Part shown: piece after piece, positions 2,966-18,324 of the stretch
Layout of the letters: every line of letters begins with the position of its first letter
How positions within the stretch are numbered: position 1 is the first letter of the stretch
Assembly: GCF_028280385.1 (NCBI RefSeq)
Contig: NZ_JANQLX010000015.1
Location: 744,001-808,000, forward strand
Length of the DNA stretch: 64,000 nt
Origin: Allomuricauda sp.
GTDB lineage: Bacteria; Bacteroidota; Bacteroidia; Flavobacteriales; Flavobacteriaceae
Reading direction: 5' to 3'
The notes under the pieces: generated by a model
What the model saw: the letters and a program-made list of their open reading frames with translations, nothing else
The model's database searches: none
What the model was told of the DNA's origin: nothing
Program-made: the position numbers and the translations under genes

Positions 2966-4492
2966 TTACCATCCCGGATTTTGGTCCAGATTTTCGTTGA
3001 TATTAATCTCCTGAAGTGGTATGGGATACAGTATGTGTTTATCCTGGAAATTCTCAGCAAAGGGTTTGTTGTGGTTTTCCAAGGTAGTTCTAATGGATTC
3101 TGTGGCTGTGCTGCCGCGTTGCCATCTATACAAATCGAACCAGCGTATTCCGAATTCCATGGACAATTCCACAGGACGTTCATGGTGACGGATTTGTTGC
3201 CGTAGCTCACTTTGGTTCATGCTGCCCAATGCAATGGGCACCGCATTTCCTCTTTCACGAACCTTGTTGATTTCAGTAATGGCCTCATCGGTTTTGTTGT
3301 TCTCGTTCAAGGCCTCGGCATACATTAGCAGTATATCTGCAAAGCGAATAATGGTGATATTGGTCCCATTATAGAAATTGGTATCCTCGTTAAAGGAGTA
3401 CTTCTTAAAATATTTGGGATGGTTCAATTCCCCGGCAACATCGCCATAGGCCACTTCGGTATCTGAATCCCGACTGTACATTTGGGAACCTGGGTCGTCA
3501 AAAAATATGCTGGCGTACACCCGGTCACTGGGGTCACCAATATCATTGACATCGGTTCGCATTTCATCTACCAACCATTGGGACGGGTAGAACAGTTCCC
3601 AACCTCCAAAGGCATAAGGGGAAACTTCAAAGTTGAATACTTGGCGTTCATCATTACCGTTGGCCCTATCTCCGGTAAACTGGATTTCAAAAACGCTTTC
3701 GGGTCCATTTTCCGACCTTCCGTTGAAGTTATCCTCATAGTTATCCAAAAGTGCATAATCCATGGCTACTACTTCGGCCAATTTGGCCTCTGCCTGTGCC
3801 CACTTTTCTTGGAATAGGTAAGCTTTGCCCAATAAGGCCTTTGCGGCTCCCTGGGTGGCTCGTCCTGTCCATTCACCAGAGTGCTCTGTTAACATGGCCG
3901 ACTCTGCTTCGGAAAGGTCGGTTTCTATTTGCGCCCATACCTCGGCTGGAGTAGCCTGTCCAGGAAAAAGGTTGTCGGGATCCACTTCGTAGGCTGTAAC
4001 CAATGGCACATTTTCAAAACCCGTAACCAACCAAAAATAATAGTAGGCCCTCAAGAACTTGGCTTCCGCCATAATTACATCCTTGCTCGCTTGGGTGAGG
4101 GCTTCCATGTTGGGAACCTGTTGTAAAATCTGGTTGGCCCTGCCAATTCCGGCATAGGCACTTCTCCAAATATTGAAAGGCCCGCTTTCTTCCGTGGTAT
4201 TGGTGAAACTGGCCAAAGACCTGCTATAAGTCTCTGCGGTATTGTTCACCATATCATCGGCTTTATAGGCCATGGCGGTATAAATTTCCTCAAAAAAGGC
4301 CCATTTGCTTCCGCTGGAGCTATGCAAGGCAGCATAGGTAGCGGTCAGGGCTTGAAGTGCGTGGTCTTCGGTCTGCCAAAAACTGGATTCTGTAAGTACT
4401 TCCCTGTTTTCAACTTCTATAAAGTCATCACTGCAGGAATACATGCCCATCAGGGCCAAAATTGCAACTAGAATAAACTTGCTCTTTTTCAT
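2966..4492 (-). CDS. susD-like: RagB/SusD family nutrient-uptake outer membrane lipoprotein
   Basis: SusD proteins are surface lipoproteins that form the lid over a SusC barrel and capture oligosaccharides or glycopeptides. The 508-residue protein starts MKKSKFILVAILALMGMYSCSDD, a signal peptide with lipobox cysteine; I take this ATG at 4492 although an ATG four codons upstream (4504) is in frame. The SusD-like N-terminal TPR region (residues about 20-200, with the conserved AEAKFLRAYYYFWLV stretch) is followed by the C-terminal RagB domain, ending in ILYPIPLQEININ and NPGW, the usual end of this family. Length is typical. It lies 18-30 bp after susC on the same strand, so the two are co-transcribed. 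Substrate is not predictable from this protein alone; see the divergent glycosidase operon. Confidence 0.95.
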   Translation of the reverse strand: MKKSKFILVAILALMGMYSCSDDFIEVENREVLTESSFWQTEDHALQALTATYAALHSSSGSKWAFFEEIYTAMAYKADDMVNNTAETYSRSLASFTNTTEESGPFNIWRSAYAGIGRANQILQQVPNMEALTQASKDVIMAEAKFLRAYYYFWLVTGFENVPLVTAYEVDPDNLFPGQATPAEVWAQIETDLSEAESAMLTEHSGEWTGRATQGAAKALLGKAYLFQEKWAQAEAKLAEVVAMDYALLDNYEDNFNGRSENGPESVFEIQFTGDRANGNDERQVFNFEVSPYAFGGWELFYPSQWLVDEMRTDVNDIGDPSDRVYASIFFDDPGSQMYSRDSDTEVAYGDVAGELNHPKYFKKYSFNEDTNFYNGTNITIIRFADILLMYAEALNENNKTDEAITEINKVRERGNAVPIALGSMNQSELRQQIRHHERPVELSMEFGIRWFDLYRWQRGSTATESIRTTLENHNKPFAENFQDKHILYPIPLQEININENLDQNPGW

Positions 4493-4522
4493 GATCTTGA
4501 TCATTATGTTTTCAATTTTTTG

Positions 4523-15171: not shown

Positions 15172-18100
15172 ATGAAAAAAAAATATGTAGTTCTGCTAGC
15201 TATATCATTTCTTGTGGCTTGCAAGAAACAACGGCTACCGGAGGTCCAGAAACAAACCTATCACTTTGACCATAAAATATTTGAAGAGAACAAACTTCCG
15301 CCTAGGGCTACCTTTTTTGGGTTTGAGTCGGAAGCTGTAACCCACAAAGAAGATTCCAAGCGTTTTGTAGATCTTAACGGCATCTGGAAGTTCCATTTTG
15401 TGACCAATCCACAGGAGAGGCCCACGGATTTTCACAATGTTGCATTTGACGATGACGATTGGGATACCATACCTGTTCCGGCCAATTGGGAAGTGGAAGG
15501 TTATGACCGGCCTATTTATCTGGATGAACGATACCCTTTTGATACCCAATGGCCCAATATACCAACAGATTACAATCCCGTGGGAACCTACCGCAGGCAA
15601 TTTGAACTCCCGCAAGAATTTTTGGACGAGCAGACCATTTTGCACTTTGAGGGAGCCAAATCTGCGATGTATGTTTATGTAAATGGAGCTTATGTGGGAT
15701 ATTCTGAAGGGAGCAAAACCCCTGCCGAATTTGATATCAGTCCGTTTGTTACCGAAGGTAAAAACCTTTTGGCCCTTCAAATGTTCCGTTGGAGCGATGC
15801 AAGTTATTTGGAGAGTCAGGATATGTTGCGGATGAGCGGAATTGAACGGGGAGTCTATCTTTATGCACGGCCCAAGGTGTTTATTTCCGACCATCATGCC
15901 TATACCAATTTGGATGATAGTTATACAAATGGAATTTTTGGAGAAACCCTATATGTGGACAATCATTCCGATAAAAGAGTATATGGCAAGGTTACGATTG
16001 AGCTTTTGGATGGTCAAAACCCCGTTATTTCCGAATCTACCAACATAATGCTGGAGCCCGATGATGAAGCCGAGTTGGAGTTTGGTGAAATTCTTGAAAA
16101 TGTAAAGCGATGGTCTGCCGAGACTCCTGACCTGTACCAATTAAAAATTGCATTTGAAGATTCCATTCAACCCACAAACAACCAGTACATCTATGGCAAC
16201 GTTGGATTTAAAAGGGTAGAAATCAAAAACAGTCAGGTTTTGATCAATGGGCAACCCATTTATATAAAGGGGGTAAACAGGCATGAAACCGACCCGTTTA
16301 CAGGTCATGTGGTGTCCAAAGCATCTATGGAAAGGGACATTCAACTGATGAAACAAAACAACATCAATGCCGTGCGGAGTTCGCATTACCCCAATGATCC
16401 ATATTGGCTGGATTTATGTGACACCTATGGACTTTATGTTGTGGATGAGGCCAATATTGAAAGTCACCCCTTGGCTATTGATGAAAAAACACAGATCGGT
16501 AATGAAATGGAATGGCTTCCAGCCCATATGGTGCGCACCCAACGCATGTACTACAGGGATAGAAACCATCCCTCCATATATTCTTGGTCCTTGGGAAATG
16601 AAGCAGGGGAGGGAGAAATTTTTAAGTCGACCTATGACTGGCTCAAGGAAGCGGATGATAACCGGATTGTACAATACGAACCTGCGGGCAAGGAAAACTA
16701 TACAGATTTGTATTGCCCCATGTACCCCAAGCACGAGTACCTGATAGAACACGGCGAATCTGCTTCTGACAAACCTTCCATTATGATCGAATACGCGCAT
16801 GCCATGGGCAATTCCGTTGGGAATTTGCAGGATTATTGGGATATCATTGAAAGGTACCCCAATCTTCAGGGAGGTTTTATTTGGGATTGGGTGGATCAAA
16901 GTTTGGAATACAAAGATGAAAATGGAAAACCCTATTTGGCGTATGGGCATGACTACCATCCGGATTTACCGACTGATGGGAATTTCCTTAACAATGGTCT
17001 GGTGGACCCATACCGGAATCCCCATCCCCATTTGTCTGAGGTTAAAAAAGTATATGAACCCGTTCATTTTGAATTTAGCCCAGCTAGGGGATATGGATTG
17101 CTTCAAGTGGAGAACAAAAATTTCTTCGATGACCTAAGCAATACCAAAATTGTTTGGAAACTCTTGGAAAATGGGAAAGAGATAGCAAATGGGCAACTTG
17201 ATTCCAATATAAAAATACCTCCACGGACCATTTATAATTATAGTCTAAAGGGATTGCCCAGAAACTTAACTCCCAATGCGGAGTACATTCTGCAGGTAAG
17301 TTTGCTTCAAAAAGAGGAAGCCCATTTAGTTCCTAGCGGGCATGAGTTGGCCTGGGACCAATTCGTGCTTCAAAATGGGAGTTTTTGGACCGAAAACAAA
17401 TCTGGAAATGGTGATGTGGAAGTGGTGGTCCAAGAAGGTAGTTTTGAACTAAGGACCTCCAAAACCCAATTCAAAATAGATGTAGCTTCGGGGGAATTAA
17501 CTTCATGGATTCATGAGGGGAAGCTGGTGACCGACCAACCCATACGTCCCAATTTTTGGAGACCTCCAACGGACAATGACCTGGGCAATGGTATGGATAA
17601 GTGGGCAAAGATTTGGCAAGATGCCACCTATGGCCAAACTTCACGACTCGTTGGTCCACCAGAGGTAAATAAAGAAGGACAGGCAACATTTAAGGTAAAC
17701 TATCAGCTTCCAAATAACATCGCGCAGGTTGTTATGGATTATACACTTTATTCCGATGGAAATTTGGAAGTGGCTTACAAGTTTGAACCTCTTACCAACG
17801 ATCTTCCCAACATCCCAAGAGTGGGAATGTATCTAACCCTTCCAGATAGTTTTAATGAGGTATCCTGGTATGGAAATGGGCCGGAAGAAAGTTATTGGGA
17901 CCGAAAAACTGGTGTTAAAACTGGGGAGTATTCTGGAGCTGCGGAAGAACAATTCCATAGATACTCCCGTCCGCAGGAAACTGGAAACAAAACGGATGTA
18001 CGCTGGATGCACCTGGCCTCTGAAGCATTGTCCATTAAAGTGGTTGGGGATACTTTGCTTAATGCAAGCGTATGGCCATTTAATATGAAAACATTGGATT

Positions 18101-18324
18101 TTGATTCGGATGAGGATGGTGCCGAATCGGCATCAGGTTTGGTGCCGGTAACCAAAAAACATGGGGCGGACATCCAAATTGGCAACACCGTCCAATGGAA
18201 TATTGATTTGCTGCAAATGGGTGTTGGCGGTGATACTTCCTGGGGGAGACCGGTAAGGGATGCTTATGTGATCCATCCCAAAACAAGGTCATATCGGATT
18301 CTGCTACAACCTCGTCGTAAGTAG
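15172..18324 (+). CDS. GH2 beta-galactosidase (LacZ-like) lipoprotein
   Basis: Hydrolyses beta-galactosides, predicted in the periplasm. The 1050-residue protein starts [19 protein letters not shown] with lipobox Cys 17. It follows LacZ architecture: sugar-binding jelly roll (about 50-230), Ig-like domain (about 230-345), TIM barrel (about 350-640), second Ig-like domain and the beta-galactosidase small-chain domain (about 760-1045). Motifs include [26 protein letters not shown], the acid/base Glu E477 in LGNEAGEG and the nucleophile E540 in [10 protein letters not shown]. Length matches full LacZ enzymes. Last gene of the operon; a bidirectional terminator follows 22 bp after the stop. Within this locus it would remove galactose from whatever aglycone the SusCD pair imports. 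Confidence 0.95.

Follow-up and report, generated by a model that had tools for sequence, protein, structure and literature searches.

Which substrate would bring an alpha-glucosidase, a beta-galactosidase and a kinase/phospho-lyase fusion together in a single operon? This question is raised by a 64 kb stretch of DNA, hereafter the window, from the 4.12 Mb genome of Allomuricauda sp. (assembly GCF_028280385.1, contig NZ_JANQLX010000015.1; G000:C16:744001-808000), in which genes for a glycoside hydrolase of family 63 (GH63), a three-domain fusion protein and a glycoside hydrolase of family 2 (GH2) follow one another on the plus strand, with gaps between their open reading frames (ORFs) of 3 bp and then 9 bp. 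Genes for an ECF sigma factor, a FecR-type protein, SusC and SusD lie on the minus strand and diverge from these three. We consider it likely that this locus serves to import and break down a glycosylated residue of collagen, the hydroxylysine unit Glc-alpha1,2-Gal-beta-O-Hyl (glucose, galactose and hydroxylysine; hereafter Glc-Gal-Hyl).

Gene content of the locus

Window proteins were named by Pfam and NCBIfam profile searches, with scores set against the curated cut-offs. An original prediction, made from the letters of the window, had described the GH63, fusion and GH2 genes as an operon opposite a SusC/SusD pair under ECF/FecR control, and the ORFs and both profile collections agree with that description. 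The locus has the gene content of a polysaccharide utilisation locus (PUL), namely a SusC/SusD pair with neighbouring glycoside hydrolases and a dedicated regulator, here ECF/FecR. The original prediction had also named an APH-kinase/class-III pyridoxal phosphate (PLP) fusion; both of these domains were found, together with a third that it had overlooked, a Peptidase_M23 domain between the other two.

The fusion scores over the cut-off of PRK06148 / NF004799, a model titled 'hypothetical protein', across the whole length of that model (1140.8 bits against 1128). Its APH domain is the sole PF01636 match in the genome of the window at E ≤ 0.001 and carries the APH-family kinase motifs expected of the animal hydroxylysine kinase HYKK. 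Among 83 fusion homologues longer than 900 aa, D204 and D226 of the APH domain, the PLP lysine K849 and the five residues of the M23 metal site (H440, D444, H494, H530 and H532, in HxxxD and HxH motifs) were invariant in all 83. The closest solved relative of the M23 domain is lysostaphin (37 bits), and a sequence search with residues 1-361 found no matching solved chain. Inspection by eye revealed no signal-like N-terminus; therefore the fusion is probably cytoplasmic. This invariant M23 domain, joined to two cytoplasmic-type enzymes in a seemingly cytoplasmic kinase/lyase, is the most novel element of the locus, and two-domain homologues of the fusion manage without it.

The GH63 protein has YgjK_N and MGH1-like domains (Pfam) and reaches 365.3 bits against the YgjK equivalog PRK10137, under the cut-off of 625, which makes it a relative of YgjK and not YgjK itself. 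Among solved structures it is closest to entries for E. coli YgjK, which include YgjK-containing chimeras. Residues D338, D456 and E649, which we take to be the positions of the YgjK catalytic residues, are identical in 17 of 17 aligned GH63 sequences, and with the expected catalytic residues intact in both the GH63 protein and the fusion, these parts look functional. Glc-alpha1,2-Gal is reported to be a glycosynthase product of E. coli YgjK, and for the GH63 protein of the window we predict release of Glc from Glc-alpha1,2-Gal-Hyl. Glucosylglycerate hydrolase was considered as another identity for this protein and rejected, the score against NF047898 being 72 bits for a cut-off of 550.

The GH2 protein falls just under the cut-off of the LacZ-type model NF052611 (997.9 bits against 999). 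Because it has GNE and IEYAHA motifs and its Pfam GH2 domains score far over their cut-offs, we regard it as LacZ-like in kind, yet uncertified by NF052611, and predict that it removes Gal from Gal-beta-Hyl. Both glycosidases begin, by eye, with lipoprotein-type signals.

Conservation of the gene company in relatives

We searched 296 genomes of the order to which the window belongs for the fusion and for this type of GH63 (the order sample), and examined 94 fusion loci in all, made up of the 14 from the order sample and the best 80 matches of a GTDB scan, a set biased towards relatives. A gene was counted as a neighbour when it lay within the fetched flanks of the fusion, up to 10 kb; since the search seeds were of Bacteroidota origin and contigs were often short, some neighbours may have been missed.

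In the order sample the fusion occurred in 14 of 296 genomes, full-length in eight and without M23 in six. This GH63 type was rarer (7 of 296), and six of the seven genomes that have it also carry the fusion (genome-level Fisher p 2e-8, uncorrected for kinship). All six co-carriers hold the two genes in one cluster, directly adjacent in two and with a gene for a glycoside hydrolase of family 42 (GH42) between them in four. The seventh genome (G219) is 75% complete and its GH63 gene lies very close to the end of a contig (about 0.1 kb); a true fusion was not found in this genome.

Across the 94 loci, GH63 lies near the fusion in 11, GH2 in nine and GH42 in four. GH63, fusion and GH2 occur together in six of the 94, and GH63, fusion and GH42 in four further loci; because of this recurrence the arrangement exceeds chance. 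The exact order GH63-fusion-GH2 is found in the window, L024, L041 and L043, and other genes are interposed in L038 and L040. L043 repeats the whole layout of the window, with ECF and FecR (64% and 59% identical), SusC and SusD divergent from GH63-fusion-GH2. Four loci show another version with a different build, in which a two-domain fusion of another genus (43-44% identical, no M23) lies beside GH63 and a GH42 beta-galactosidase. Sixty-five loci have flanks of 5 kb or more on each side; among them GH2 or GH42 was present in 10 of 10 with GH63 versus 2 of 55 without it. A FastTree phylogeny of 91 fusions, weakly rooted at the midpoint, places GH63 on separate branches, namely the two-domain clade, L078 and a flavobacterial clade.

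A seedless clustering of neighbour genes, made for the 91 loci in which the fusion ORF was recovered, placed the proline-racemase family and GH63 at the top (11 loci each), followed by the DAO family (nine) and GH2 (eight). As controls we used 40 regions, each 20 kb long and placed at fixed round-number coordinates, from the 14 fusion-carrier genomes of the order sample. GH63, GH42, HypE, DAO, HGLS and the D-2-hydroxyglutarate dehydrogenase D2HGDH were each found in none of these 40 regions. They did yield a weak GH2 match (24% identity), two matches to L-piperidine-6-carboxylate (P6C) dehydrogenase, of which one was strong and the other weak, five to SusC, two to FG-GAP and one to DUF885.

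A proposed exit route from hydroxylysine

The predicted product of the kinase and lyase is 2-aminoadipate 6-semialdehyde, and genes for a route onward from it lie near the fusion in seven of the 94 loci. P6C dehydrogenase scores over its cut-off of 730 in L033 (826) and L085 (777); HGLS, a 2-oxoadipate dioxygenase/decarboxylase, is present in L027, L028 and L033; and a YdiJ-type D2HGDH homologue is present in L030, L031, L033 and L063, the two homologues tested reaching 577 and 603 bits, under the YdiJ cut-off of 1350. In lysine breakdown, such a route is made up of HGLS and YdiJ. In L033 the genes for HGLS, P6C dehydrogenase, GH63, GH42, the fusion and D2HGDH stand on one strand, a set that would provide a candidate for each step from Glc-Gal-Hyl to 2-oxoglutarate save one aminotransferase.

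The original prediction had spoken of a complete route. The window itself ends at aminoadipate semialdehyde, and the later enzymes are encoded elsewhere in the same genome, where a P6C dehydrogenase and HGLS, the latter about 12 kb from a D2HGDH homologue, were found away from the locus.

Association with hydroxyproline genes

Genes for hydroxyproline degradation lie near the fusion in 12 of the 94 loci. Homologues of 4-hydroxyproline epimerase (57-100% identical to the seed from L026) lie within 10 kb of it in nine, and three of these nine (L026, L044 and L097) were run against NCBIfam and scored over the cut-off. Genes resembling 3-hydroxyproline dehydratase, which are HypE matches at 33-35%, are present in four; the two of these that were tested (L038 and L053) fit best as 3-hydroxyproline dehydratase, under the cut-off of that model. 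DAO, aldehyde dehydrogenase and DapA-type genes are also found near fusion homologues, and Xaa-Pro-peptidase-like genes, all under cut-off, lie nearby in L040 and L053. In the order sample, HypE is present in 12 of the 14 fusion carriers versus 25 of the 282 other genomes (p 2e-10, likewise uncorrected for kinship).

The most extensive linkage is a run of nine genes in L038 (1756-18875), which overlap or are separated by gaps of at most 10 bp when the longest-ORF starts are used. It comprises pyrroline-2-carboxylate (P2C) reductase, which scores over its cut-off, a 3-hydroxyproline dehydratase-like gene, an aldose epimerase-like gene, GH63, GH2, the fusion, a further GH2, a sodium symporter and galactokinase. 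In the genome of the window the corresponding genes are on other contigs or far off: a DapA-type/HypE/DAO cluster, a 1-pyrroline-5-carboxylate (P5C) dehydrogenase and a pair made up of a 3-hydroxyproline dehydratase-like gene and P2C reductase.

Two further genes recur in these neighbourhoods. A DUF885 protein (L026 3744-5465; also L044, L057, L073 and L074) recurs with hydroxyproline genes and is possibly a peptidase for collagen peptides. A protein of about 143 aa without a Pfam match (L026 8331-8759) has similar counterparts near the fusion in L038, L040, L046, L053 and L059; in several loci it adjoins a small gene that by eye resembles an acetyltransferase.

Proposed pathway

From this gene content we infer the substrates, localisation, regulation and order of steps as follows. 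SusC and SusD would import Glc-Gal-Hyl or glycopeptides that contain it, and the two probable lipoproteins would remove the sugars in order, first Glc by the GH63 alpha-glucosidase and then Gal by the GH2 beta-galactosidase. The M23 domain probably first trims small Hyl-containing peptides, which is the least certain step. In the cytoplasm the APH domain would phosphorylate the 5-hydroxyl of hydroxylysine, and the class-III PLP domain would eliminate phosphate and ammonia to give the semialdehyde. Enzymes encoded elsewhere in the genome would convert this product to 2-aminoadipate, 2-oxoadipate, D-2-hydroxyglutarate and finally 2-oxoglutarate, and other genome-encoded enzymes would degrade the hydroxyprolines of the same protein. 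The glycosyl-hydroxylysine reading, which the original prediction had put forward, is supported by three independent lines, namely the exit-route genes, the link to hydroxyproline genes and the existence of another version of the locus with a different build.

A broader picture can be sketched tentatively, and we would put it at somewhat less than an even chance. Bacteroidota may possess a modular system for the special residues of collagen, composed of SusC/SusD, an alpha-glucosidase, a GH2 or GH42 beta-galactosidase, linked pathways for 3- and 4-hydroxyproline and for aminoadipate, and a trifunctional enzyme in which M23 would free Hyl from short collagen peptides and hand it to the kinase and phospho-lyase of the same chain; in L182 and L183 a kinase and a lysA-type decarboxylase would stand in for the fusion.

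Weighing of alternative substrates

Several observations weigh against glycosylated hydroxylysine as the substrate, and the first concerns the PLP domain, whose only near solved relatives are human phosphoethanolamine phospho-lyase (ETNPPL) and an Arthrobacter phospholyase. The domain is 50% identical to the human enzyme and matches it best (6tor, 440 bits), followed by the Arthrobacter protein (5g4i, 292 bits) and then by a chain at 168 bits. A predicted structure of the whole fusion chain (mean predicted local distance difference test score, pLDDT, 91.5; predicted template modelling score, pTM, 0.91) gave the same pair when searched with Foldseek, the top four chains being those of 6tor and 5g4i. 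With such relatives the sequence alone cannot pick hydroxylysine over ethanolamine, and the nearness to ETNPPL would suit a fusion that is an ethanolamine kinase and phosphoethanolamine phospho-lyase, in which case the glycosidases would free ethanolamine-linked or unrelated sugars. We hold this to be quite improbable because of the neighbour genes. Enzymes of aminoadipate semialdehyde and hydroxyproline metabolism neighbour the fusion homologues, and an ethanolamine substrate leaves the alpha-glucosidase, the beta-galactosidase and P6C dehydrogenase unexplained. The aldehyde dehydrogenase that recurs with hydroxyproline genes has 2,5-dioxovalerate dehydrogenase as its best model (120 bits, under cut-off). 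Thirty-one neighbour clusters recur in four or more loci; the 17 that were looked up included no ethanolamine-utilisation gene, although no dedicated search for such genes was made. The neighbour context, through its aminoadipate-route and hydroxyproline genes, therefore points to hydroxylysine over ethanolamine.

The statistical contrasts form a second group of adverse points. Taken by itself, the difference between loci and controls is modest (GH63 in 11 of 94 versus 0 of 40, p 0.017; GH2 in 8 of 94, p 0.053). Kinship-independent pairs for GH63 and beta-galactosidase number four only, show the same direction or no difference, and are too few for significance. GH63 and hydroxyproline neighbours coincide in only two of the 65 loci with long flanks, with a kinship-corrected median p of 1 and hence no association. 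The original prediction had named absence of the gene trio from related genomes as grounds for its refutation, and it survives this test, as the three genes occur together in some relatives, though five of the eight full-length fusions of the order sample (L025-L029) have neither GH63 nor GH2 nearby. Conversely, GH63 is found without the fusion in five genomes of a phylum sample and in G219, with GH2 in the same cluster in three of these six.

These last cases bear on whether the PUL might be aimed at an ordinary alpha-glucosyl-galactoside, such as an algal or bacterial glycolipid or polysaccharide, with the fusion as a passenger of the operon. L185, which has GH63, GH2 and SusC/SusD and no kinase that could be seen, would fit such a target, as would L181, L184 and L186, where GH63 occurs without GH2 or the fusion. 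We nonetheless judge it improbable, given that the pairing of fusion and GH63 recurs on separate branches of the fusion tree, comes in two architectures and involves beta-galactosidases of two families. Moreover, L182 and L183, which lack the fusion, keep SusC/SusD, GH2 and GH63 and carry in its place a homoserine-kinase-like APH gene and an extra lysA-type decarboxylase. The PULs of L182 and L183 possibly serve a different amino-acid aglycone or use a different route.

A third group of adverse points lies in the distribution of the companion genes. At least one gene of GH63, GH2, GH42, the hydroxyproline set or the aminoadipate route is present in 28 of the 94 loci, and none was found in the other 66, where misses are possible. 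By record title, which gives no group for one of the 94 loci, companion genes occur in 27 of 52 Bacteroidota loci versus 1 of 41 from other groups (L085). When 11 alphaproteobacterial and other neighbourhoods were read by eye for a second clue to the substrate, only a few Lrp-type regulators stood out. That a glycosidase or hydroxyproline neighbour was found for only a minority of fusion homologues, and for none of the alphaproteobacterial ones examined, is what would be seen if the hydroxylysine pathway served sources other than collagen, such as free or other hydroxylysine, with the sugars handled independently. For the locus studied here this seems very improbable, as the Bacteroidota hydroxyproline genes and glycosidases beside the fusion indicate a single protein containing Glc-Gal-Hyl, 3-hydroxyproline and 4-hydroxyproline.

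Relation to known systems

The pairing of kinase and phospho-lyase, bacterial fusions included, was reportedly used by Veiga-da-Cunha in 2012 to identify the human enzymes. That human-enzyme paper stands as reference 76 among the gene-fusion references of a 2025 review (PMC12138971), and the animal pathway of HYKK and PHYKPL is described in another source (PMC5200902). The proposed pathway resembles it in that an APH-fold kinase acts first and a class-III PLP ammonio-phospho-lyase then yields 2-aminoadipate semialdehyde, and differs in that both enzymes are fused, with M23 between them, in an operon with glycosidases and SusC/SusD. The fusion fits the APH-M23-aminotransferase proteins of PRK06148 / NF004799, for which we propose the substrate from context.

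A last adverse point is that the known glucosidase for collagen Glc-Gal-Hyl, PGGHG, belongs to GH65 and not GH63 (PMC8626586). It is described from human and chicken as removing the Glc of Glc-alpha1,2-Gal-Hyl (PMC8626586, PMC8537180), whereas the window locus would assign this bond to a GH63 enzyme. E. coli YgjK is the closest solved GH63 relative and its catalytic-type residues align, although the window protein lies below the equivalog cut-off.

The locus shares the SusC/SusD pair, ECF/FecR control and exported glycosidases with Bacteroidota PULs, and departs from the usual ones in that its probable target is a protein glyco-amino acid and its operon includes amino-acid catabolism. The dehydratase/reductase genes for 3-hydroxyproline and the epimerase/DAO/DapA-type genes for 4-hydroxyproline, whose roles we in part presume, are like those of bacterial hydroxyproline gene clusters. 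What differs from such clusters (PMC5144071) is their linkage to the fusion, which extends in L038 and L040 to glycosidase genes. A bacterial locus for Glc-Gal-Hyl was not described in the titles and abstracts listed for the literature searched, of which coverage was partial, with few subscription journals, so that its absence in print is not implied.

Collagen is among the commonest animal proteins. If the proposed function is correct, the locus would represent a bacterial route from the Glc-Gal-hydroxylysine unit into central metabolism, with a GH63 function distinct from the animal GH65 enzyme; it would also assign a substrate to the widespread unnamed family PRK06148 and provide genomic markers of collagen-eating bacteria.

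Other features of the window

Coordinates of the locus and of the two PULs without the fusion are given in Table 1.

Table 1. Features of the predicted Glc-Gal-Hyl locus (window coordinates) and of two related PULs (coordinates of the respective locus).
Feature	Position	Strand	Evidence and remarks
GH63 (YgjK-type), predicted alpha-glucosidase	10084..12123	+	Pfam/NCBIfam; probable lipoprotein by eye
Three-domain fusion (APH - M23 - class-III PLP)	12127..15162	+	Pfam, PRK06148; predicted hydroxylysine kinase / 5-phosphohydroxylysine phospho-lyase
APH kinase domain of fusion, residues 27-253	12205..12885	+	Motifs HNDANDNN, IDYGD
Peptidase_M23 domain of fusion, residues 439-536	13441..13734	+	Metal site H440, D444, H494, H530, H532
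Class-III PLP domain (Aminotran_3) of fusion, residues 604-1000	13936..15126	+	Schiff-base lysine K849
GH2 LacZ-type, predicted beta-galactosidase	15172..18324	+	Pfam GH2, NF052611; probable lipoprotein by eye
ECF sigma factor	9231..9827	-	TIGR02985 139.5 bits, cut-off 126.4; homologue in L043
FecR-type anti-sigma factor	7985..9112	-	Pfam; homologue in L043
SusC/RagA-type TonB-dependent importer	4523..7891	-	TIGR04056 892.8 bits, cut-off 368
SusD-type surface lipoprotein	2966..4504	-	Pfam
FG-GAP / ASPIC-UnbV repeat protein, 3′ of SusD, runs off window	3..2870	-	Locus membership uncertain
PUL with APH + lysA-type decarboxylase replacing fusion, L182	6752-10960		Second lysA-family match elsewhere in genome
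PUL with APH + lysA-type decarboxylase replacing fusion, L183	6781-10947		Second lysA-family match elsewhere in genome

On the 3′ side of the operon, on the opposite strand, lies a gene for a GHL10 protein, a family-10-like putative glycosidase (18410-19525; 36 bits). Further along the window (30300-38231), a penicillin-binding-protein 1C-like gene was noted by eye beside a gene for an alpha-2-macroglobulin-like protein of 1854 aa.

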